The notes under the pieces were generated by a model that had not been told where the DNA came from, ran no database searches, and saw only the letters and a program-made list of their open reading frames with translations. A stretch of 64,000 bases of DNA from contig OY754466.1 in the NCBI GenBank assembly GCA_963575645.1, positions 35,310,001 through 35,374,000 of the forward strand, given 5' to 3'. This DNA is from Xanthostigma xanthostigma. Taxonomy: Eukaryota; Arthropoda; Insecta; Raphidioptera; Raphidiidae. Each line of letters opens with the position of its first letter. Position 1 is the first letter of the stretch. A program made the translations under genes and the position numbers. Of this stretch, positions 11,803 to 49,822 are shown piece after piece.

Positions 11803-12274
11803 GGGTGCGTTCCGATATGCACTGGGAGCACTGTACAGTGTGACGTCAATTCAGTATACTGTGAAGCCGTTCCTTTATAGCCAGTAATACTGGTTACTAT
11901 TTAAAACGGAACGCACTCCAGTATACTGTCAGCATCGTTTTTTGATGCAGTTTTCAAATGAGCGTATTAAAGATTTCTAATTAAATAAGCTCAATTTTTG
12001 CAAATTTTCCATTATTTTCAGAAGTCCAAAATAATTTCAGAATTTTTAATGTCAACTGTTTAGCACTCAAGCGGCTTTGACTGATCACGTGATCAAAGTA
12101 CTGGCGAATACCTTACCTCGAAAACGCCAGTGCTCGCAGTAGAAATATATGGTTATTTATGACGTCATATATTTCCCTAGGGTACTGCGCCAGTATACTG
12201 GCGTTCATAACGGAACGAATTTTTCTACAGTAAGAGCACTGGGCAGTGCTCCCAGTGTATATCGGAACGCACCC
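11803..12274. mobile_element. PIF/Harbinger-type MITE with TTA duplication
   Basis: Inverted ends GGGTGCGTTCCGATATGCAC and its near-complement finishing in GGAACGCACCC are flanked on both sides by TTA (11800-11802 and 12275-12277). That is the TWA-type target duplication of PIF/Harbinger transposons. The interior is rich in CCAGTATACTG-like repeats and holds no transposase frame. Confidence 0.8.
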
Positions 12275-12701: not shown

Positions 12702-14508
12702 TCATCGCGCACATTCTTCAGAACATGCCAAATTTTCTCTTTCCTCCGTTAGCTCACTCTTAGGAAGCGTTGGCAATTCGTGTTCAAGTTTTAGGATTTT
12801 CAAAAACTCTTCATTTGAAACATGTTCTGCGGGACCATCTTGTTTAAAAGTGAATAAAACATTACCTCCTTTTTCGATAACGGCTGCGCCACCATTTTGA
12901 ACCCAATCACCGCGAAGGTCACCCCCAAGTTTCATTTGTTTTCCTTTTGCTATGGCATCACGGGATTCTTTCCGAAGAAGGGAAGTTAAAATAGAAAAGT
13001 GATTATACCGCTTGAAATCCAAGTTGCCGAACACATTTCTGTCAATATCTCCATAAAGTTCTGAAATCAATTAAGAACGTGATTAGACAAAAACTATTGT
13101 AAATTCCAAATTTTGGTTTCCGTCCTTGTAGGTCGTGGTTCATTGGTATTATAGCTAGAAATACCAATGAACCACGGCCGCCCACAAGCTCGAAAACCAA
13201 GAGATTTGAAACAACATCGGCTTTGAACACTTAGATATTGTTAATTTATCTAAATGTATATACCTACCTCCATCTAGAAAGTTTCCTTCCAAGAATTCCT
13301 TAGCGCCAATATCATCCTGACCAATGCCAATCAGTCGAATGTCATGCTTCTTTAAAATCGGCGCTATTTCAGATATCTCTTTTGCCCACAGACGACAAAA
13401 TAGGCATCCCCAACGTCGGAAGAAAATTACGATGCATGTTTTGTCTTCCCACAAGCTTTCGAATGTAATGGTCTAAAAATGAGATTGCGTGATATCCATT
13501 AATAACAATCAAGACATTAAGAATTATTAATTTCTTAAATTAATATAGCAAATAGGCAGAGTTGATTGTGTTTATTGTGGCCGCTTGTCAACATATTTCT
13601 AAATTAATGACTAATTTTAAAATTTTATAAACTATAATGCATATTTTTTATATATTCATCTATTTGGTTTTGTCAAAAAATATACGCGTCGTTTTTTAAC
13701 CCGGTTAAAATGTATTCAAGAGAAAAAGGTCTTTGTATATATTAATCGAGCTTGCACATTCAGTAGTTGTCTCCAGCTAGGCAAGCAGAAACTTTTATAA
13801 ACATAACAACTATAAAGCGCTGTATTACTGCGCCAGTGAAATACAGGGGACACCAGGCGTAAAGCTGCTGCTAATATGCTTATATTATTTTTTATAGTAT
13901 AATTGATACATGGAATTAAAAAGCGTGTACATACTTTAAAAAAAGGAAAACTATATAGTATATTATAATCAAAAAACGATTAAATTTGAAATATAAATCG
14001 CGAGCTTCAACTAAAAACTACTAGCCCATGTGGAGATATAAACGTCTTTAAAAATGCATTAATTAAATAAAATTGAGCTATCAACAAAGTTCATCTTATC
14101 CCTCGAAAACTACCGACCGGGATACAAAGTAGCCTAGATATATTTCGATCCATGGAAAATTTCATTCAAACCCTTTGCACTTGCGCCGTTCCTGAGATAA
14201 GCCCGAAGAGAGCAACAAAAATTATAAAAAATGTCAAGTTATTTTTATAAATCAATATTAAAATGAGTCACTTTTTACAATAAAATTAATAATAACATTA
14301 CCCCCACAGTGACCTCTAAGATAAATAGCATCTTTTAACTTTCTTCAGTTAAGCGCATTAACCACGCAACTGTTCATGATTGTATAAAGCTAATACCTAT
14401 AATTAACACATTTAATTACACCGGTGTTGTAAACAAATCAGCAAGTGAACTTACATTGCCGGTAGCTAAATGCTTAACCTGGCTTTTCATAACCTTTGTA
14501 ACATCCAT
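12702..14508 (-). CDS. Peroxiredoxin-like 2 / prostamide-prostaglandin F synthase homologue, three exons
   Basis: Thioredoxin-fold reductase of the PRXL2 (FAM213/AAED1) group. In mammals the PRXL2B member reduces prostamide and prostaglandin H2; the substrate here is unknown. Exons on the minus strand are 14508-14455, 13472-13268 and 13060-12702, joining to 205 codons plus stop, close to the family's length of about 200. The start gives a short lead-in, then KHLATGN. Residues 41-44 are the CLFC redox centre, within RRWGCLFCR, where the family has its CxxC. DFKRYN, SGGxxV-like NGGAAVIEKGG and HVSNEEFLKIL follow in the expected order. The closest match by eye is PRXL2B. The last 25 residues are acidic and unlike the family. 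Exon 1 was chosen because it splices in phase to a GTAAGT donor. Confidence 0.88.
13131..13179. repeat. Short near-perfect hairpin in a PRXL2-like intron
   Basis: A 20-base arm (13131-13150) and its complement (13160-13179), with one mismatch and a 9-base loop, lie between exons 2 and 3. This could be a MITE remnant or a structured intronic RNA. Confidence 0.65.
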
Positions 14509-19768: not shown

Positions 19769-19967
19769 AAGTTGTTGTCAGCTAGCATGTCAGCCAAATC
19801 AATTTCAACCATGCTGATTGACTTCATAGATTCTTATACGACCTTTGCTAATTAACCAGCAGAAAGAGTGTGCTTCAAAACACGAATGTGCGAATAAAAT
19901 TTTTTTTTTTATTGATCATTAATATATTTTATTTAAAATACAGTGCATAAAATGGTCAATTGTTTAG

Positions 19968-22900
19968 GAAATCGTTGAAATCAATTCTTCAGGATGTCAT
20001 GTCGACTGGAAGTGCAATATTTTCGGTGGAAATTTGCCCCAGTATACCCATTTGTTCACGTAATTGGCGCTCGGTGTATCCAACGTTTTATTCAATAACG
20101 TGGCACTGTGAACGCAAAGGATTTATTTCACTGCACACTGACATCCCAGCTTTAAATTTAGCGAAAATACTTCAGGAAAGAAAAAAGGAACGCGTCTTAT
20201 TACACCTGGCTTGTAAAAATTTAACGAAACATGATGTCTTAACGATATTGGAGCGTGCAAAACGAATAGGAGTAAAAAATATCTTGGCTTTATACGGAGG
20301 TAATTTCAATAACTTTTCTTCATACCTCGATCGAAAGTACATAATTATTTTCGGCATCAATTGTAAGACAGAAAGTCTAACATTTATGCACTGATGCGGG
20401 AAGTACGTACGTTCGGGCGGCAGTACAGAAAAAAATAACCTATTAACTGTTATTTAGATGTCGTTAATTCCATAGCGACCCTATTACATTTTAGCTAATA
20501 GTCACGAACAGCTGTCATTCGTGTTTTTACGTATAACCTCAAAGCTTGCTTGGAATTTATCTGTATTTTTATGTAATTAATAATCAATTAATTAATGTAT
20601 TTAATAAACGTACTTACGACCGAGGTATGAATAAAAATAGTATACACCACACTGGTCGAAAGTTTGATACATTGCACTTTCGCCTCGGGCATCTTGGCGC
20701 GCTGTGCAAGAATATAAAATTTTCGGCCCTTGTGCGGTGTAATATACTATTATCGAAAACAGAAAACGCAATAAGAACCCACTATACTTTTCTCCCAGTA
20801 AATATTTGTTTACACGTAAATATACAATATACAGTGAATTTCATTTAAGAAATTAATAGCTGAAGGGCTCACGCACCACTTTTCACGAAGTGTTTGATGC
20901 ACGTAGAAATTTTGACCAATGGTACAGATAGGATAGATGAACAAGAAAAAATATGTTTGCCTTACTTACCGTGATACTACAGGTACTGCGCATACAAGTA
21001 ATGTGCTCAAAAATTTATGTCAAAAAAAGTGTCTGATTGAAAGAAATCATCTAAACATGCTTTGAATAATTGGAACATAATATTATGTAGGTAACCATGC
21101 CAATGAATAGCAATGATCGGATTATTGTTTTTGTACTAAATCGCGTGCGGTGTGCGGGTAATGGTTAGTATTACCTAAATACGATATTTGCTATTCATTG
21201 CCATGGTTACCTACATAATATTATGTTCCAATTATTCAAAGCATGTTTAGATGATTTCTTTCAATCAGACACTTTTTTTGACATAAATTTTTGGGCACAT
21301 TACTTGTATGCGCAGTACCTGTAGTATCACGGTAAGTCAGGCAAACATATTTTTTCTTGTTCATCTATCCTATCTGTACCATTGGTCAAAATTTCTACGT
21401 GGATCAAACACTTCGTGAAAAGTGGTACGTGAGCTCTTGGGCTATAAGACGCAATATTTTAGGTACATAAGTTTTGTTAATATGGTAGCTATAGAAATCA
21501 TTAATGGATTGCAGAAATTCGTTCTACATAAAACTTATTATTCAACATAGATTCGAAGAGAGATTTGTATGCATTTTGTGCGGAACGATTTTCTATAATC
21601 AATTAATGATATCAACAAAACTTCACTGCATGTGTATATTATAACGTCATAAAGTACAGTTAAAAGACCATACACACTTGTCAAGCATGAACCTGCACAA
21701 CCAGCACATCACGGAACCAAAAAAAACCTATTCGTTAAGGTAAACATGTTATTTAACGGAATAGCGCACATTAAACCAGCACCTGCAACCAGTAACGACT
21801 GTTAGTCGTTCTACTGCAATTTCTGTCTAGCCGTGTTGAATCGATTTAGTGTGCTAGTCCTGTGTGGTTTTCATTAATTAATTTGCACTGATAAATCTAC
21901 TTGAAAACTGCCAAATATCTGCTGCACGTTACGAAGCCTGCACTAAAATGTTTTGTTGGTTTGTGATGATTATACTGGTCTACTTCTAGTGTGCTGTGCA
22001 GGTCGTGCAGGTTTATGCTTGACAAGTGTGCACGGTCTTTTAATGTTAAAAAATTAATTGGTATCATAAAAGCCGTATATAATTGTAGTTATTGCACACC
22101 CCCGTGTAAAATTTAGCGATTATATTTTTTCCTTAACTGAAACAAATGGAAACGAAGTAGCAATACGGCAGTAATAGAAAAATAAAAATACCTACCTAAG
22201 AAAGTCCAGCTTAACATGTATTCATTCTATAGATCCATCAAGAGACCTGCAGAAACAGCCAAGAGATCGCGATTTCTTTCATGCAGTTGATTTAGTCAAA
22301 TTTATTAAAATGTATTACGGAAGTTATTTTACAATAGCTGTGGCGGCCTATCCAACCCCTCATCCTGATTGCGTTTCTATGGAACAAGATCTGTATTTTC
22401 TCAGGGAAAAGGTAAAATCCACAACACAGTCTCTATTTGGTTCTTAAATTTTAGGTATCCGTAGTTCATCTTTCAAATCTTTTTTGGGGAACTTACTTCT
22501 ATGTACGCATTACGTAAAAATGTTAAAGATCTTGAAACATTAGCAACCAGAAGTTCCTGACTATCTTGATTTTACCAACTGCATTGAAAAAAAGTTGACA
22601 AGATGTGTACTTTCTTTAGAAAAATCATTTTATAATAAAATATTTCTCAAAAAAACCCTGAATATTCTTACCCACCAAATAAAAAACCGTTGCGTTTTTT
22701 TACTTCCAAAATTTAGGGGAAAATCTCATAGTTAGCTACTTTTACAGACAATCGACCGCTTTCAAATTATTAGTTGCTCCAGTGAAGACAAAAAAAAAAG
22801 ATACTGTGTATTTTACACTACACACTACAGAAGTAAAACTGGTATAATTGTAAAAAATTATAATAATAATGGCCATTATTATTATAACTGACCGTCAGGA

Positions 22901-23596
22901 TAGTACCTACAACCTTTAAGTTACAAAATAGAGACTATACCTCCCAACCACCATAGCATAGCGTTGTACGGCCGATTTTTATAGTACACGGTATACGTGC
23001 ATTGCATCGTTTTGTTACACTTTCAATATATTACGATTTTGCCTATCGTACCAAAAGAAGTTTTACTTCAAAAATTATTATACTTGTTGACATTGATTCC
23101 AAAAGTTCCTCATTGTTCCTTTGATCAATATCGGGTTATAGTAGTATGCTTCGTATTTCAGGTGGACGCCGGCGCTGATTTTATTCTCACACAAATCGAA
23201 TTCAGCGTCAATGTTTTCAGCACATTTGTACGTAGATGTCGTCAAATGAACATCGATGTACCAATAATACCTTCTGTTTTTGTTCCAAACTCATACGAGT
23301 CCTTACAATCTCTGTCAGGCATATGCAGAATCCGCTTACCAGATACTGTGGTACGAACGCTGCAATCCATCAAAGATAATCCGTTAGCTGTTAGAGCGTA
23401 TGGAGTATTTCAAGCAACGACTATTATAAAACAATTGTTAGATAAACAACAGTTTCCTGCAGTTGTTGGATTTCACGTCATTTCATTGAATAGACTTGAA
23501 AATGTTAGCGTACTTTGTAAGAACTTGGGTTTTGGTAAGTCGTCAATAGAACGCCCAATCAAAATACGTAATGAAGACTGTGGGACATCGATGTAG
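19968..23596 (+). CDS. Methylenetetrahydrofolate reductase-like protein, single catalytic domain; 5' end missing
   Basis: The family uses FAD to reduce 5,10-methylene- to 5-methyl-tetrahydrofolate for methionine synthesis. Exons are 19968-20299, 22233-22411 and 23162-23596, joining in frame to about 314 codons. Landmarks in order are FSVEI (catalytic Glu, FEFFPP region), SITWH, NILALYGDP (the LRGDP motif, split at the exon 1/2 junction, Arg replaced by Tyr), AVAAYPTPHP, DAGADFILTQ (active-site Gln), VPIIPSVF and FHVISLNR. So the Glu, Asp and Gln that bacterial MetF uses are all present. The frame stops soon after LNR, near the bacterial MetF length, and no SAM-binding regulatory domain was found downstream. 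However, GTAAGT at 23535 could be a donor to an unseen last exon. The first exon opens at an AG with no start codon, so a 5' exon is missing, unless translation starts at the internal Met (19996). Confidence 0.82.
20863..21438. repeat. 251-bp-arm near-perfect foldback in an MTHFR-like intron
   Basis: Left arm 20863-21113 is the reverse complement of right arm 21188-21438 with only a few differences. The 74-base spacer includes GGTGTGCGGGTAATGGTTAG. No transposase. If transcribed with the gene it would form a long double-stranded RNA hairpin. Confidence 0.9.
21664..22039. mobile_element. TIR element flanked by TTAA in an MTHFR-like intron
   Basis: Ends are AAGACCATACACACTTGTCA and TGACAAGTGTGCACGGTCTT, continuing inward as AGCATGAACCTGCAC-type inverted repeats. 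TTAA stands on both sides (21660-21663, 22040-22043). This is either a target duplication, as in piggyBac elements, or part of the palindrome. No coding frame. Confidence 0.75.
22794..23080 (+). repeat. Dispersed repeat D, copy 2
   Basis: Uninterrupted copy of the repeat at 17390-17860, ending about 80 bases before the third MTHFR-like exon. It contains CACTACACACTACAGAAG and CCAAAAGAAGTTTTACTTC. Confidence 0.6.
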
Positions 23597-33298: not shown

Positions 33299-33879
33299 TT
33301 ATTCTGAAGTTATTGATCTGTCAAAAGAAAATAACTATGGCTGACAAGCATTCTTTGGTTAATTTTGTCAAACCATAAGTAACCATCATAACAAAAAGCG
33401 GTTACCATAATATAAATATTTTTAAATGTGTGTATTTTATTTTATTTATTATAATAAGTATATCAAATGACGGTAATTTTCAGGAGGCTCAATTGTCTGG
33501 AATTTTTTTCAGACACGTTAATGTTATAAGCATATTTGAGTATTTTGATATTGTTCATAAATAAAAACCAGTGGGAGTATATGCCCAAGTAATTCAAGAA
33601 TTACAAGGCGCGAAATTTTACGTCATATACCCCGGTGTTTTGCTTGAAAATCGGTGTATATATTTAACGACACTTGGAGAATAATATAGTATAACTTAAT
33701 TTACTTATTCTAAGTAAAAATAACAGTTGAAAATAATGAAACACAGAAAGGAAAATATAATTTTAATAAATTCATGGTTCTCTATGTAATATGTTATTGT
33801 GTCATGCAAAAATTAAACATAACTAACATCTTCAGAACAAAAGAATAACAGATTTGTTTTCAAAATATTTCTGAAATTA

Positions 33880-34566
33880 TGAGTTTAGAAAAAAAATTCA
33901 TAACTTTCTTGTAAAAACAGATAGAAAAATAAACCGTTATGAAAAGTACCCAATTATTATATAAAAACAACTTTATAACATATATGTGCCGACTTTAGCT
34001 CAAAGAATTTTTTACAAAACTTTCTTTAAAATAGAATAATAAAACATTATAAAAACTACACCATTATTATATAAAAAACAACGATGGCATGTATCTCTTT
34101 TGCGCATGCGCCGATTTTTCCCAAAAATTATAAAAAACTCTTGTCAAAATAGATCGAATAATAAACTGTTATGAGAAGTATACCATTGTTATATACAAAC
34201 AACTTTATAACTTATACCTCTTCTGCGCATGCGCCGACTTTCCCTCAAAAAACATTTTACAAAACTTTCTTGTAAAGTAGAATAATAAAACATTATAAAA
34301 AGTACACCATTATTATATAAAAAACAACTATGGCTTGTATCTCTTTTGCGCATGCGCCGATTTTTCCCAAAAATTATACAAAACTCTTGTAAAAATAAAT
34401 CGAATAATAAACTGTTATGAAAAGTATACCGTTGTTATATACAAACAACTTTATAACTTATACCTCTTCTGCGCATGCGCCGACTTTCCCTCAAAAAACA
34501 TTTTAGAAAACTTTCTTGTAAAGTAGAAAAATAAAACATTATAAAAAGTACACCATTATTTTATAA
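33880..34566 (+). repeat. 123-bp satellite with GCGCATGCGC palindrome
   Basis: The palindrome recurs at 34102, 34225, 34348 and 34471, a 123-base period, with a degenerate copy upstream near 33986. Alternate monomers resemble each other most (TATCTCTTTTGCGC versus TACCTCTTCTGCGC), so the array is a two-monomer higher-order repeat. Related single units occur at 37681-37830 and 48905-49150. Confidence 0.85.
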
Positions 34567-34770
34567 AAAAATTGGTTGTCTGTAAAGTCGGTTTACGGAC
34601 GATAGTTTTACGTGATAAAGTATTCCGCTCGAATATCATATTTAATAATACATTACTGCGCTCTCGCTTACACGCACAGGGTCAGGCGGAACGTTATGGA
34701 ACGTTACACTTTTTCGTGCGTGCAGCTGGTGTTTCATCAATTTATAAGACGTTATCACGTCAAAAACTTA
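34567..34770 (+). repeat. Repeat E, copy 2
   Basis: Complete copy of the repeat at 24308-24505, sitting exactly between the 123-bp and 120-bp satellites. It starts TTGGTTGTCTGTAAAGTCGG and ends in TTATCACGTCAAAAACT. Confidence 0.8.
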
Positions 34771-37680
34771 GTCACCATCTTTAGAAGTCCGCAATATTGG
34801 ATTTAGAGTGACGTCACTTTATTTTTCGAGTTATTCTCAGCAAGCCCTTTCATTTGATACCCATATTGTAGGAAAGCATAATAAAATTAGTCCGCCATCT
34901 TTAGAAGTCCGCCATATTGGATTTAGAGTAATGTCACTTTATTTTTCGAGTTATTCTCAGCAAGCCCTTTCATTTGATACCCATATTGTAGGAAAACATA
35001 ATAAAATTAGTCCGCCATCTTTAGAAGTCCGCCATATTGGATGTAGAGTGACGTCACTTTATTTTTCGAGTTATTCTCAGCAAGCCCTTTCATTTGATAC
35101 CCATATTGTAGGAAAGCATAATAAAATTAGTCCGCCATCTTTAGAAGTCCGCCATATTGGATTTAGAGTGACGTCACTTTATTTTTCGAGTTATTCTCAG
35201 CAAGCCCTTTCATTTGATACCCATATTGTTGGAAAGCATAATAAAATTAGTCCGCCATCTTTAGAAGTCCGCCATATTGGATTTAGAGTAATGTCACTTA
35301 ATTTTTCGAGTTATTCTCAGCAAGCCCTTTCATTTGATACCCATATTGTGGGAAAACATAATAAAATTAGTGCGCCATCTTTAGAAGTCCGCCATATTGG
35401 ATGTAGAGTGACGTCACTTTATTTTTCGAGTTATTCTCAGCAAGCCCTTTCATTTGATACCCATATTGTAGGAAAGCATAATAAAATTAGTCCGCCATCT
35501 TTAGAAGTCCGCCATATTGGATTTAGAGTGACGTCACTTTATTTTTCGAGTTATTCTCAGCAAGCCCTTTCATTTGATACCCATATTGTAGGAAAGCATA
35601 ATAAAATTAGTCCGCCATCTTTAGAAGTCCGCCATATTGGATTTAGAGTGACGTCACTTTATTTTTCGAGTTATTCTCAGCAAGCCCTTCCATTTGATAT
35701 CCATATTGTAGGAAAGCATAATAAAATTAGTCCGCCATCTTTAGAAGTCCGCCATATTGGATTTAGCGTAATGTCACTTTATTTTTCGTGTTATTCTCAG
35801 CAAGCCCTTTCATTTGATACCCATATTGTAGGAAAACATAATAAAATTAGTCCGCCATCTTTAGAAGTCCGCCATATTGGATTTAGAGTGACGTCACTTT
35901 ATTTTTCGAGTTATTCTCAGCAAGCCCTTTCATTTGATACCCATATTGTAAGAAAACATAATAAAATTAGTCCGCCATCTTTAGAAGTCCGCCATATTGG
36001 ATGTAGAGTGACGTCACTTTATTTTTCGAGTTATTCTCAGCAAGCCCTTTCATTTGATACCCATATTGTAGGAAAGCATAATAAAATTAGTCCGCCATCT
36101 TTAGAAGTCCGCCATATTGGATTTAGCGTAATGTCACTTTATTTTTCGAGTTATTCTCAGCAAGCCCTTTCATTTGATACCCATATTGTAGGAAAACATC
36201 ATAAAATTAGTCCGCCATCTTTAGAAGTCCGCCATATTGGATTTATAGTGACGTCACTTTATTTTTCGAGTTATTCTCAGCAAGCCCTTTCATTTGATAC
36301 CCATATTGTTGGAAAGCATAATAAAATTAGTCCGCCATCTTTAGAAGTCCGCCATATTGGATGTAGAGTGACGTCACTTTATTTTTCGAGTTTTTCTCAG
36401 CAAGCCCTTTCATTTGATACCCATATTGTAGGAAAACATAATAAAATTAGTCCGCCATCTTTAGAAGTCCGCCATATTGGATGTAGAGTGACGTCACTTT
36501 ATTTTTCGAGTTATTCTCAGTAAGCCCTTTCATTTGATACCCATATTGTAGGAAAGCATAATAAAATTAGTCCGCCATCTTTAGAAGTCCGCCATATTGG
36601 ATTTAGCGTAATGTCACTTTATTTTTCTAGTTATTCTCAGCAAGCCCTTTCATTTGATACCCATATTGTAGGAAAACATAATAAAATTAGTCCGCCATAT
36701 TAGATTTAGAGTGACGTCACTTTATTTTTCGAGTTATTCTCAGCAAACCCTTTCATTTGATACCCATATTGTTAGAAAGCATAATAAAATTAGTCCGCCA
36801 TCTTTAGAAGTCCGCCATATTGGATTTAGAGTAATGTCACTTTATTTTTCGAGTTATTCTCAGCAAGCCCTTTCATTTGATACCCATATTGTAGGAAAAC
36901 ATAATAAAATTAGTCCGCCATCTTTAGAAGTCCGCCATATTGGATGTAGAGTGACGTCACTTTATTTTTCGAGTTATTCTCAGCAAGCCCTTTCATTTGA
37001 TACCCATATTGTAGGAAAGCATAATAAAATTAGTCCGCCATCTTTAGAAGTCCGCCATATTGGATTTAAAGTGACGTCACTTTATTTTTCGAGTTATTCT
37101 CAGCAAGCCCTTTCATTTGATACCCATATTGTAGGAAAGCATAATAAAATTAGTCCGCCATCTTTAGAAGTCCGCCATATTGGATTTAGAGTGACGTCAC
37201 TTTATTTTTCGAGTTATTCTCAGCAAGCCCTTTCATTTGATACCCATATTGTTGGAAAGCATAATAAAATTCGTCCGCCATCTTTAGAAGTCCGCCATAT
37301 TGGATTTAGAGTGACGTCACTTTATTTTTCGAGTTATTCTCAGCAAGCCCTTTCATTTGATACCCATATTGTAGGAAAGCATAATAAAATTAGTCCGCCA
37401 TCTTTAGAAGTCCGCCATATTGGATTTAGAGTGACGTCACTTTATTTTTCGAGTTATTCTCAGCAAGCCCTTTCATTTGATACCCATATTGTTGGAAAGC
37501 ATAATAAAATTCGTCCGCCATCTTTAGAAGTCCGCCATATTGGATGTAGAGTGACGTCACTTTATTTTTCGAGTTATTCTCAGCAAGCCCTTTCATTTGA
37601 TAGCCATATTGTAGGAAAGCATAATAAAATTAGTCCGCCATCTTTAGAAGTCCGCCATATTGGATTTAGAGTGACGTCAC
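34771..37680 (+). repeat. 120-bp satellite array, 24 units
   Basis: Units start at 34808 and follow every 120 bases: 15 full units to 36607, one 103-base unit (36608-36710), and eight full units to 37670. Partial sequence lies at each edge. Each unit has GTGACGTCAC (or GTAATGTCAC in six units) and two CCGCCATNTT motifs 17 bases apart. Because 120 is a multiple of three and one frame lacks stops, the array shows 571- and 338-codon open frames. These are a by-product of the period, broken by a TAA in unit 15 and a frameshift in unit 16, and I do not call them genes. The short unit lost exactly one 17-base interval between the two TCCGCCAT copies. Confidence 0.95.
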
Positions 37681-37998
37681 CGATTTTCCCCAAAAAATTT
37701 ACAAAAATTTCTAGTAAAAATAGATAGAGTAAAAACCGTTTTAAAAACTATATTATTATTATTATATAAAACAACATTATAAGAGATATATTCTTTTACG
37801 CATGCGCCGATGTTCCCCAAAAACAATAGGCCACTTCATATTTGCATATCAAACATCCTCCCAAAATTTGGTTTCAATCCGCTCTTCCTTGATGTCGGAA
37901 TGATAAGAAATGTCAAAAGTGATGTTTGCATCAGCTGTCAAAGTATTAAGTTCTAATAATTAGTTATTCAAATTGTTAACTTAGAAGGCGTTGCATTT
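37681..37998 (+). repeat. 123-bp satellite remnant and shared segment F
   Basis: From CGATTTTCCCCAAAAAATTT onward this matches 49016-49320, including GCATGCGCCGATGTTCCCC and AGGCCACTTCATATTTGCAT. The right edge of the 120-bp array therefore falls inside a 123-bp monomer. Confidence 0.75.
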
Positions 37999-38565
37999 TA
38001 TTAAACGCTTTATATTAGCTTGGGTTGTAACTAACTATGTATGTATGTATGTAACTAACTACCGTAACGGAATCTTTGAGCATAATTTTCACCAATTTCC
38101 CGAAGTCTGATTAATTTGAAACTTTGCATACGTATCAAGGACCGATGACAATGCAATGATTTGATAACAGTTTCCCATTATCCTTATTAGGACCCCCAGG
38201 ATTAATAAATTCTTTTATAGATCCTCTGTAGTAAACGCTTTATTTTCACCAATTTCCCGAAGTCTGATTAATTTGAAACTTTGCATACGTATCAAGGACC
38301 GATGACAATGCAATAATTTGATAACAGTTTCCCATTATCCTTATTATTAAACGCTTTATATTAGTTTGGGTTGTAACTATGTATGTATGTCCGTAACGGA
38401 ATCTTTGAGCATAATTTTCACCAATTTACCGAAGTCTGATTAATTTGAAACTTTGCATACGTATCAAGGACCGATGACAATGCAATAATTTGATAACAGT
38501 TTCCCATTATCCTTATTAGGACCCCCAGGATTAATAAATTCTTTTATAGATCCTCACTAAAAAGT
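37999..38565 (+). repeat. Tandem duplication, about three units
   Basis: TTCACCAATTTCCCGAAGTC (with variants) and TTTGCATACGTATCAAGGAC occur three times at about 38090, 38238 and 38420. Units are unequal in length. ATGTATGTATGT short repeats lie in units 1 and 3. Confidence 0.8.
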
Positions 38566-38791
38566 GAAAAATAAAATATAGTTTAAAAAAAACTAAAAAA
38601 CACGCTTTATATCGGACTAAAAAGTAAAAAATAATTGTTTTAAAATAAGCTTAAAAAGCGTTGGGCGCTCGATGTACGAAAATGTGGAACAAAGCGCCCC
38701 ACGCTTTTTAAGCTTATTTTAAAACAATTATTTTTTACTTTTTAGTCCGATATAAAGCGTGTTTTTTAGTTTTTTTTAAACTATATTTTTA
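38566..38791. repeat. Foldback
   Basis: Left arm 38566-38669 and right arm 38693-38791 are reverse complements. ACACGCTTTATATCGGACT on the left matches AGTCCGATATAAAGCGTGT on the right. The spacer is about 23 bases. Confidence 0.85.
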
Positions 38792-40193
38792 AATATTTCA
38801 AATGGCATCCGTTTTTGAACAAATGCTATCTCCTTTGTTTTATTATTGTCATAAATAAAATTATCGACCAATTTTGTTTTAAGACAGAACATACGCAATA
38901 ATTAAATTACCATGTTATACCGTGCAACAGAGAGAGATAACCGAAAGATGTTTGCTATCGGTTATATCAGATTGAATTTATTTCTATATAAATGTGTATA
39001 AGAAAAGTGATTGGGCGAATTCTGTTGTACGAAATTTATGTAAAATTTTCTCCTCTTTCGTTTAAGACAGGTTTCGAACCGATCTGATTTAAATTGAGCG
39101 AGTTATAAGCGAAAAACTTCGTTTTTTCTAAATTGCTCCCCTCTGGAGCAAAAATTCAAAAATCGGGCGACGTTAGGATTTAAGTTACCCGGAGACAAAT
39201 CGAACAAAAAAAAGTTTTTTAAAATCGGTTAAGTCGTTTGGGCTGTACGCTGGATACAAAAAGCGTGACTCACAGATTCACAGACAAAGCGAGTACATAT
39301 AGGCGCTTTAGCTTACGCTATTCGCGCCTAAAAAAGACGAGTGTCCTTTAGACCACACGACTGAAGTAAAACTTCTTCCTGCCATAATTTGTTATTATTC
39401 ACCCCACAGAACAGTGTTCTGTGATTCACCCGAAAATTTACAAAATATGAACTTTAAAATGAATTTACAATTTTAATCACTTTAAATGTAGAATATTAAA
39501 GATATAATGAAAACAAAAGTAATACGTTGCAACGTTGTCACTGGCAAGTAAAGAGTACTGCTTATATTTTCGGCCACCTGATGGCGCCAAGTATGTGTCA
39601 TTCAACACTCTCTCTTTCTATCTTCACTAACTTATATCTCCCTCTCAACTTCCGTTCGCCTCGAACGATCACGCACCGTTCGCCTCGTCCGATTTCCGTA
39701 AACGCTTTCGTCAGCTTACTCCCCAAGTCAAGCGTGCCTAAAGAAGTTTTACTTCAAAAAAAAAAACCATCAAGTTTTGAATCAGTCGATACGAACACTG
39801 TAAGTGAAGTTCTCTTCTTTTGTTCGGCAAACATAAGAACGCATTAAGTTCTCAATTATCACGAACAATGGAAACAAACGCCCATCACGGACTACAACTG
39901 TTACCAACACACAGATTGTACACTTCATATACTAAGTACATTGTGATAAATTGCCTACTCCTGTCTTCATAGATTGATTCCCATTCCATTGTCTTTGCCG
40001 AGTCACAACTTCAATATGACATTGCATTACAGTGCTATTACATTGCGACAGATAAATGCACCTGTTGTGTCAGATTGACGATTGGGCAGCTATCCAGGGG
40101 TCTACATAATTGGGCGATTTTACACTGGCAGTGAGTCACGAGTATGATCCATGTTTTCGTGATTCACTTTTTTCATGACGATGGGCTAATGGG
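38792..40193. other. Segment F continuation, then no gene recognised
   Basis: About 38990-39130 (TTCTCCTCTTTCGTTTAAGA onward) matches 49540-49610, so the shared composite extends to here. From 39130 to 40193 nothing was recognised apart from AAGAAGTTTTACTTC, also seen in repeat D. Confidence 0.45.
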
Positions 40194-47527: not shown

Positions 47528-47572
47528 AAAAAATTGGTTGTCTGTAAAGTCGGTTTACGGACGATAGTTTTA

Positions 47573-48365
47573 TAGGCCCCACTCACGATCAAACTTCATG
47601 CCACAGTTCAGTGTTCAGTGAAGTTGGACAGATTAATCGAAAGACTGACTGGCACCACACACAGTTCATGCAAACTGCTCAGTTTTTTAAATTTTTTGTG
47701 TTCAGTTTGGTTCAGTTGTTTTGTTGGCATACACTCGTCGAGTATAGATACATAACATATTATATTATATACATACTATAATATTATACTATAGAGTATA
47801 TAGTTCATTAATAAGAACTAAATGAGTAATTTAAATGGTGAGGATTGGCTGTTCATAGTTATGGGATTGTATTTAAAACAGAGAAATAAGAAAAAAAAAG
47901 AAGAATATGGGTGAAAAATTGGTTAGAAATGCGTGATTCAAGAAGTCATGTTTATTTGATTAATGAATTACATCTTGAGCCGCTTGATTGCAATAATTAT
48001 TTACGAATGAATGAATTAACTTACAATTATTTACTGGAATTAGTTACCCTATTTATTAAGAACCAGGACACAAATATGTGAAAATCTATTTCTGCACAAG
48101 AAAGGCAGCAACATTGAGATTTTTGGCTTCTGGTTGTACAAAACACAGAACTCCAAAAACTGAACTGAAAAACACCCACACACACAACAGTTTACTTGAA
48201 CACTGAACACTGAAGTCGTTCAAAAATCAAGATGCATTTGATGAGTTCATGCTTGACTTCAGTGTTGGTTTCAGTGTTTATTTGTCCCACACACTATCAT
48301 GCTTCACTGAACTATAAGTTTGAACACTGAACTGTTGCATGAAGTGTGATCGTGAGTGGGGCCTA
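47573..48365 (+). mobile_element. PIF/Harbinger element nested in repeat E
   Basis: Ends are TAGGCCCCACTCACGATCAA and TGATCGTGAGTGGGGCCTA-type inverted repeats. TTA stands on both sides (47570-47572 and 48366-48368) and only once at the uninterrupted site in repeat E copies 1 and 2. This confirms the insertion and its 3-base duplication. Confidence 0.92.
47822..48166 (+). pseudogene. Harbinger transposase N-terminal remnant
   Basis: After a first frame from ATG 47822 and a frameshift, 47902-48081 reads IWVKNWLEMRD, then LINELHLEPLD, NNYLRMNELTYNYLLELVT and FIKNQDTNM. This is the start of PIF/Harbinger transposases ('WV..W......G....L..EL...D...F..F.RM....F..LL..V...I...DT.M'). A stop follows, then SISAQER in the same frame. 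Two stops and a frameshift show it is dead, and the DDE region is missing. Confidence 0.8.
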
Positions 48366-48904
48366 TTACGTGATAACGTATTCCGTAATACATAACCTAA
48401 ATTTATATAATAATTATAATAATTCGAATCTATGATATTGCATCTTTCGCTTCAAATTTAGGTAAATTTTATTTATTAAATTACTCACCACCTATAAAAA
48501 TAATTTTTTTTATTAACTTTCTTTCTTTCGTATTTATTTAAGTCTCAAAGATTAACTGTCATACTATTTATAAAACAATTGTTTCACTGTTTATATAAAA
48601 TTCCAAAACCTACTTACAATATTTAAGTATTTTCATACGTCAAAAAATTGATTTTTATAATGATAAAATTTGTAAGAAAACGATTTTTTCGAGAGATGAG
48701 ACCTAGCTAAAACGATTTTTTGCCCCCCAAAATCCCTTTTCAGTAAATTTCATCCAAATCGTTAGGGCCGTTTTCGAGAAAAGCACGCACAGGGTCAGGC
48801 GGAACGTTACGAACGTTAGGAACGTTACACTTTTTCGTGCATGCAGCCGGTGTTTTATCAATTTATAAGATTGGTGATTCATCAATTTATAAGACGTTAT
48901 CACG

Positions 48905-49150
48905 TCAAAAACATTTTACAAAACTTTCTTGTAAAGTAGAATAATAAAACACTATAAAAAGTACACTATTATTATATAAAAAACAACTATGGCATGTATC
49001 TCTTTTGCGCATGCGCCGATTTTCCCCAAAAAATTTACAATAATTTCTAGTAAAAATAGATAGAGTAAAAACCGTTTTAAAAACTATATTATTATTATAT
49101 AAAACATCATTATAAGAGATATATTCTTTTACGCATGCGCCGATGTTCCC
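48905..49150 (+). repeat. 123-bp satellite, two units
   Basis: GCGCATGCGCC at about 49008 and ACGCATGCGCC at about 49132. The flanking text matches 34490-34560 and 37681-37830. The 120-bp array is absent here. Confidence 0.75.
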
Positions 49151-49612
49151 CAAAAACAATAGGCCACTTCATATTTGCATATCAAACCCCAAAATTTGGT
49201 TTCAATCCCCTTATCCTTGGTAATTATAAGAAATGTCAAAAGTGACGTTTGCAACTGTCAAAGTATTATGTTCTAATAATAATTAGTTATTCCAATACTT
49301 AACTTAGAAGGCGTTGCATTTCACAAAATACTAATGTCAAAAAATTGAATTAAACATTAGAAATGCAGCCGTTTTCATGTTAAGACAAGACGTACGTTAT
49401 CTTCTAATTTCCATGTACGGCAAACAAAGACGACCGACCGCGTCGCGCCAAGACAACATTGCATTTATACAGCTATTTTTCTATATAAATTTGTATAAAA
49501 AAACTGTTTAGGCAAATTCTGTTATACGAAATCTATGTAAAATGTTCTCCTCTTTCGTTTAAGACTGGTTTCAAACCGATCTGATTTAAATTGAGCGAGA
49601 AATTAGCAAAAA
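49151..49612 (+). repeat. Segment F, second copy
   Basis: AATAGGCCACTTCATATTTG through GGTTTCAAACCGATCTGATT corresponds to 37825-38000 and 38990-39110 in the same order. It lacks the tandem duplication and foldback that separate these parts in the first copy. Confidence 0.65.
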
Positions 49613-49822
49613 GCACGCACAGGGTCAGGCGGAACGTTACGCGTTACGAACGTTAGGATTTAGGAACGTTACACTTTTTCGTGCATGCAGCCGGTGTTTT
49701 ATCAATTTATAAGATTGGTGATTCATCAATTTATAAGACGTTATCACGTCAAAAATTTTGAAAACGGATGGGTAGTTTCAGAGACTATCTCCTACATCCA
49801 AACTTATAAACTTTACCCTCCG
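49613..49822 (+). repeat. Repeat E right part (copy 4) and inverted repeat G fragment
   Basis: CACGCACAGGGTCAGGCGGA to TTATCACGTCAAAAA repeats the right half of E. From 49760 the text CAGAGACTATCTCCTACATC and TATAAACTTTACCC is the inverse of 46800-46860, closing the composite. Confidence 0.65.

Follow-up and report, generated by a model that had tools for sequence, protein, structure and literature searches.

A 120-bp tandem array with paired YY1-like motifs is probably the central module of a Helentron-type transposon in Xanthostigma xanthostigma

Our analysis of a 64,000-nucleotide stretch of Xanthostigma xanthostigma DNA (contig OY754466.1; the whole stretch is hereafter termed the window) indicates that a 120-bp tandem array within it very probably forms the central repeat module of a HINE, i.e., a non-autonomous rolling-circle transposon of the Helentron type. 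HINEs with satellite-like central repeats are of a kind already known, and the present family is an added member. What appeared to be a dense regulatory array would thereby become a defined transposon module with ends, a copy number, and an older relative. Moreover, this very abundant HINE system, in which two elements (HINE-O and HINE-T) have one repeat module, should aid the study of satellites derived from rolling-circle transposons. The relevant features, in window coordinates, are as follows.

34764..37680, strand not applicable: central repeat array (Tandem Repeats Finder; 120-bp period, head-to-tail)
34764..34882: degenerate left edge copy of the unit (CACCATCTTT, CCGCAATATT) with an intact CRE-like site, read from the sequence
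36683..36785: 103-bp unit without one 17-bp CCGCCAT repeat; limits approximate and phase-dependent
33568..39333, minus strand: HINE-O, non-autonomous Helentron-type element carrying the array; both ends matched across loci
33568..33614, minus strand: HINE-O 3' terminal segment, with subTIR, palindrome, and a 26-mer matched in the genome
39291..39333, minus strand: HINE-O 5' terminal segment, with T-tract, subTIR AGGCGCGAA, then GCGCCTA
33984..34570: second tandem module of HINE-O (Tandem Repeats Finder; 123/246-bp period), with GCGCATGCGCCG
37681..37998: HINE-O segment adjoining the right end of the array; junction GTGACGTCA/CCGATTTTCCCC, identical in L010
34572..34765, minus strand: HINE-T, complete 194-bp HINE adjoining the array; 5' TTTTGACGTGATAACGTC, 3' ...ACTTTACAGACAACCAA

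Composition of the array

At its left edge, the array has a degenerate copy of 120 bp; 22 full 120-bp units, a single 103-bp unit, and an incomplete final copy make up the remainder. Within a unit, the starts of the two YY1-like cores lie 17 bases apart, the cores being direct repeats of 17 bp; what the 103-bp unit has lost is exactly the 17 bp separating the two cores. An exact plus-strand count yielded 22 copies of CCGCCATCTT and 24 of CCGCCATATT in the array (i.e., 46 matches to CCGCCATNTT) and none outside it on either strand of the window (0.2 expected from base composition). The CRE-like sequence TGACGTCA, which reads alike on both strands, occurs 19 times in the array, and GCGCCATCTT is found in one unit near 35372, in addition to the degenerate edge copy. 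Unlike the edge copy in the window, those at three other loci (L009, L013, and L022) retain both YY1-like cores intact. Thus, the numbers that a first-pass annotation had obtained by eye (46 YY1-like and 19 CRE-like sites) are identical to the exact counts; its tally for TGACGTCA, with 18 of 24 units and an additional copy at the right edge, agrees with the latter figure, and the 17-base spacing it described was confirmed in the units. Because a unit with an internal 17-bp duplication was amplified, the 46 sites represent one doublet multiplied rather than 46 independent matches. Elsewhere in the window, TGACGTCA occurs four times (at 11841, 12160, 26477, and 58654; 0.6 expected from base composition).

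Over 22 units in the window, we observed 0.0023 substitutions per position in the YY1-like cores, 0.068 in the CRE-like site, and 0.018 elsewhere, with the CRE-like position reading AATGTCA in 6 of the 22 full units. The earlier statement that motifs are kept while the rest of the unit varies therefore holds, within the window, for the YY1-like cores and not for the CRE-like site.

One plus-strand frame is open over 571 codons (34808-36523) and again over 338 codons (36711-37727), in favour of a protein-coding repeat of 40 codons. However, in the older relatives of the array (family B, described below), successive unit anchors are separated by 108 to 122 bp, or in some cases by roughly two units, and the frame is therefore not kept. 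In addition, a Pfam search placed DUF4984 above the whole-protein cut-off and FTA4 below it, with no single stretch passing for either; summed scores of this sort, without a passing stretch, are what is expected of repeats. We rejected a coding array on the basis of the lost frame in family B and the repeat-summed Pfam matches, and we consider its probability to be close to nil. Exon-like open reading frames were detected elsewhere in the window (19960-20394, 22997-23596, and 12702-13070), with matches to methylenetetrahydrofolate reductase (PF02219) and an AhpC/TSA-type antioxidant protein (PF13911). A search of the window against Rfam at gathering score returned no match, i.e., no structured RNA.

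Element ends, insertion sites, and genome distribution

According to passages of Thomas et al. 2014 (PMC4067079), HINEs carry subTIRs of 12 to 15 bp, one close to the 5' terminus (within a few nt) and the other 38 to 60 nt from the 3' terminus, as well as a palindrome 8 to 35 nt from the 3' terminus; their targets are T-rich, with a variable number of T and no target modification, and some copies contain tandem repeats. Consistently, we found both elements at the array to have subTIRs and palindromes at these distances. At its 5' end, HINE-T has TTTT and then, beside this T-tract, the subTIR GACGTGATAACGTC; its 3' subTIR (a copy with one mismatch in the window) is 38 to 40 nt away from the 3' end (the value varies with end placement), and its 15-nt palindrome (GTAAA-CCGAC-TTTAC) lies 10 to 12 nt from that end. 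HINE-O extends from a 3' end at 33568 (reverse complement of CCAGTGGGAG...) to a 5' end at 39333 (reverse complement of ...ATTCGCGCCTAAAA), with its 3' subTIR TTCGCGCCT located 38 to 39 nt from the 3' end (the range reflecting end placement in an A/T tract) and its 16-nt palindrome (GTAATTC-TT-GAATTAC) located 21 to 22 nt from it. Both HINE-O ends are matched at 100% in L010, L011, L013, L014, and L021, and also in L018, where the 5' end is matched over 41 of 43 bases. Two features argue against filing HINE-O as a HINE, namely, its subTIRs of 9 bp versus the published 12 to 15 bp, and its 3' CTGG, which fits the CTRR of canonical Helitrons, although its 5' end is not TC. Canonical Helitrons, as characterized in the same passages (PMC4067079), have a 5' TC, a 3' CTRR, a palindrome ~11 nt from the 3' end, and insertion between A and T. 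We rejected this class, since HINE-T has neither end and HINE-O lacks the 5' TC and carries its palindrome 21 to 22 nt away.

Clean empty sites of HINE-T were recovered for three of the nine candidate pairs listed (L038, L043, and L052), in which filled and empty versions differ by 5 to 6 A, with no duplication beyond the A/T tract, which could itself mask a short target duplication. For HINE-O, a single case read by eye (L021) revealed an A/T-tract change plus one host base. Insertion was T-rich at all of these sites, i.e., the three clean HINE-T sites and the one HINE-O site. A LINE/SINE-type insertion, considered in view of the A-tracts, was rejected, as the clean empty sites lack a longer duplication.

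Exact matches were counted over the 623-Mb genome (28 contigs), revealing 1,430 for the HINE-O 3'-end 26-mer (palindrome and subTIR), 20,094 for a 31-bp segment of the HINE-T 3' end, 11,605 for the paired motif with any 7-base spacer, and 10,982 for a motif-free unit anchor; an exact 19-base unit string had no match in viral contigs. We compared 15 stretches of contig C1, of which 14 contain the array family of the window (family A) and one (L017) contains the older relative only. For each of the nine HINE-O ends listed in C1:0-4.4 Mb, an array is found no more than about 2.5 kb away. HINE-O and the array occur with no HINE-T inside the element in L011, L014, L018, and L021 (in the last of these, a HINE-T copy lies at another place in the stretch); in L009, L015, L019, L020, and L022, the array resides in a HINE-T composite whose 5' end is present twice, HINE-O ends being absent; and in L012, L013, L016, and L023, a HINE-T composite occurs together with HINE-O ends, the 47-base HINE-O 3' end being present at <70% of its length in L012, L016, and L023, with its 26-mer among the matches listed there. 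In L010, as in the window, HINE-T adjoins the array. The arrays contain 30 (L018), 24 (window), 22, 20, 12, 12, 11, 10, 9, 9, 7, 6, 2, and 1 full units, and that of L019 consists of one partial unit with no full unit. On both sides of the array, the element ends stay fixed, in flanks that are unrelated between loci.

A classical heterochromatic satellite or boundary, located here by chance, would share the tandem structure and the 120-bp period, but the family A arrays sampled from the assembly are short, and in the window and at all 14 places on C1 they are located within or next to HINE ends; we deem such an origin very unlikely. A stand-alone satellite is also disfavoured, the arrays being inside HINEs. 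The satellite array first described for this DNA has its 120-bp tandem period but is not stand-alone, as it sits inside HINE-O.

Additional repeats were seen in and around these elements. Segments related to the second tandem module of HINE-O (33984-34570) occur in other loci, also within the HINE-T copies L048 and L053 (by eye). A hairpin within HINE-O (38573-38789) has 97-nt arms that are 99% complementary and a 23-nt spacer, with related pieces in L023. Another part of HINE-O (38020-38560) holds several altered repeats of a ~100-bp stretch starting CCGTAACGGAATCTTTGAGC (by eye), which by eye was not found in the sampled relatives. Elsewhere in the window, an element of ~793 bp (47573-48365) with near-perfect ~28-bp inverted ends (TAGGCCCCACTCACGATC...) and TTA on both flanks lies inside a HINE-T copy (47534-49754, by eye); from its 3-bp target, it looks PIF/Harbinger-like.

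Helitron_like_N Rep/helicase genes have 89 matches in the genome. None of 14 Rep loci bears HINE-O or HINE-T ends at ≥70% length, 12 of these loci being 3.5-kb pieces that would seldom reach an element end and two covering one side only. No endonuclease domain, which the Rep/helicase of an autonomous Helentron would carry, was seen in the two long Rep ORFs scanned. Long Helitron Rep/helicase ORFs carry a deubiquitinase-type domain at their C-terminus, which is UCH in L067 (C3:36858000-36867900) and OTU in L066 (C10:6816221-6826200); an OTU domain in Helentrons is already described in passages of PMC4067079.

We propose that the 120-bp unit entered or arose in its carrier HINE-O, where units may have been gained and lost via slippage or unequal exchange, a view that the clean 17-bp loss and the array-length ladder fit. 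Copying of the element would then have seeded the array into genomic T-tracts, probably by a rolling-circle mechanism with a Helentron Rep/helicase presumably acting in trans; the family to which the elements belong points to both this copying mechanism and an autonomous partner. The abundant HINE-T has the repeat module in common with HINE-O; this sharing, like the structure, the copy number, the array-length ladder, and the empty sites, was observed directly. The dense YY1-like and CRE-like matches would descend from a founding unit with CCGCCAT as a 17-bp direct duplication.

Motif conservation and regulatory readings

The first-pass annotation had proposed comparing diversity inside and outside the motifs across genome copies. 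For the young arrays of family A (175 units from 14 arrays, with L019 having no full unit and B-type units left out), the 18 fixed core positions had a mean non-majority fraction of 0.0187, compared with 0.0555 for the CRE-like site and 0.031 for the remaining positions. When each mask was rotated through 120 placements (1 = least diverse), the core ranked 18 and the CRE-like site 106; weighting arrays of ≥6 units equally gave ranks of 10/120 and 99/120, respectively. Comparison of the core with the rest by base class gave p values of 0.055 (A/T) and 0.12 (C/G), and CTTTCATTTGATACCC, which matches neither motif, displays at least core-level conservation in family A. Genome-wide, between fixed flanks, 6,877 of 7,896 cases (87.1%) had an intact first core (CCGCCATCTT side), 7,331 of 9,353 (78.4%) an intact control segment, and 4,136 of 6,512 (63.5%) an intact TGACGTCA, where the control is one chosen 10-base stretch, the core count covers the first core only, and the patterns have 8 fixed positions for the CRE and 9 each for the first core and the control.

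Family B consists of older, divergent relatives of the 120-bp unit, present singly or in short arrays (L017:2070-2610; L018 [C1:2784000-2793500] at ~2792300; L068-L087). A right flank shared by L017 and L018 (...TTTATGCGGACTTTTACACGTGTG...) hints at another carrier element. The sample derives from 150 anchor matches at ≤2 mismatches, with 20 regions fetched in addition to L017 and part of L018, and about 47 units from 20 of the 22 loci were analysed; the anchor lies inside the unit and was excluded from the value for the rest. Variability was 0.089 in the core, 0.168 in the rest, and 0.171 in the CRE-like site, and the core ranked 1 of 64 placements, i.e., least variable (p of 0.002 for A/T and 0.05 for C/G versus the rest). 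In consensus, families A and B are identical at all 28 motif positions, those of the CRE among them, and at 62 of 92 others (Fisher p = 1.1e-4, with neighbouring sites non-independent and B aligned to A).

These results refute the CRE idea. Selective conservation of TGACGTCA, as would be expected of a CREB/ATF-type platform acting through it, was not found across the genome copies: although there are 19 such palindromes in 2.9 kb and the site is kept in the consensus of both families, it is the most variable part tested in family A, it is intact in 63.5% of cases genome-wide, and in family B it varies as much as the rest. The claimed conservation of the CRE-like site thus fails by the annotation's own comparison, and a platform of this type is extremely unlikely. 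The YY1-like cores fared better, passing weakly (rank 18/120 in young arrays, 1/64 in family B) with CTTTCATTTGATACCC equally conserved. Taken together, the sequence comparisons weakly suggest a modest, older constraint on the YY1-like doublet, of which the cause may be a host factor, an element function, or sampling.

The conserved block could serve the element itself, either as a signal by which the transposition machinery recognizes or replicates it or as one for recombination between units. Its occurrence in HINE-O, HINE-T composites, and the older B repeats would fit such a function, as would the two separate conserved stretches in the unit, but the unit was present in just 1 of 30 HINE-T copies found by their 3' end (within the fetched stretch, some loci overlapping), and we know of no function of central repeats in Helentrons. 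We hold this reading to be unlikely.

Alternatively, the paired CCGCCAT of a transposon-borne array might recruit Pho/YY1, so that the arrays would act as sinks, Polycomb-response-like modules, or regulatory modules, a reading compatible with the HINE explanation, since both can hold. It would account for the retention of cores and spacing between families A and B, for the least variable placement of the family B core and its base-class p values, and for the higher intact fraction of the first core genome-wide relative to the single control segment. It has to contend with the less extreme ranks and p values of the young-array core, with the equal conservation of the motif-free CTTTCATTTGATACCC, with the retrieval of family B by an anchor within the unit, and with the use of one control segment genome-wide. 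A precedent is provided by the DINE-1-like sites of the MSL complex in D. miranda (cited in passages of PMC4067079), to which a Pho/YY1 platform, if true, would be comparable. On this evidence, we regard the platform as quite unlikely, and we assign the same low probability to the scenario that a HINE family spread the paired CCGCCAT to hundreds of sites or more and that host Pho/YY1 binding has preserved the doublet from a time predating the divergence of families A and B. The roles first suggested for the array, i.e., protein sink, Polycomb platform, or boundary, are speculation. The regulatory idea is now cleanly testable through Pho/YY1 binding of the doublet and the effect of gene-near copies.

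Comparison with known systems

In the open-licence papers searched, we found neither the string CCGCCATATTGGATTT nor any joint mention of Helentron and YY1. Two systems resemble the array in its YY1-like motifs. Human SVA elements, as portrayed in excerpts of PMC9239442, are likewise non-autonomous transposons that contain YY1 motifs and have tandem repeats in their interior; in contrast to the present family, they are retrotransposons, and YY1 binding by ChIP-seq is located in their Alu-like/SINE parts, whereas the sites described here are sequence matches. Mouse gamma-satellite is a tandem repeat proposed as a YY1 target (Shestakova et al. 2004, cited in excerpts of PMC6309819), and it differs in being pericentromeric and in having experimental evidence.

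Closer likenesses exist among HINEs. As described in passages of PMC4067079, HINE/DINE-1 elements share with the present family subTIRs, a 3' palindrome, a T-rich target without duplication, a variable T number, a very high copy number, and tandem central repeats in some copies; the differences lie in another sequence, the 9-bp subTIRs and 3' CTGG of HINE-O, and the lack of a partner among the 14 Rep loci. Cg_HINE of the Pacific oyster, according to excerpts of PMC7492417, has short satellite-like central arrays (monomers of 140 to 180 bp versus 120 bp here) and modules combined between elements, and it has not been linked to an autonomous partner either. Its arrays mostly contain ≤5 monomers, the longest reaching 29 (PMC7492417), whereas at least 10 full units are present in 8 of the 14 arrays sampled here.
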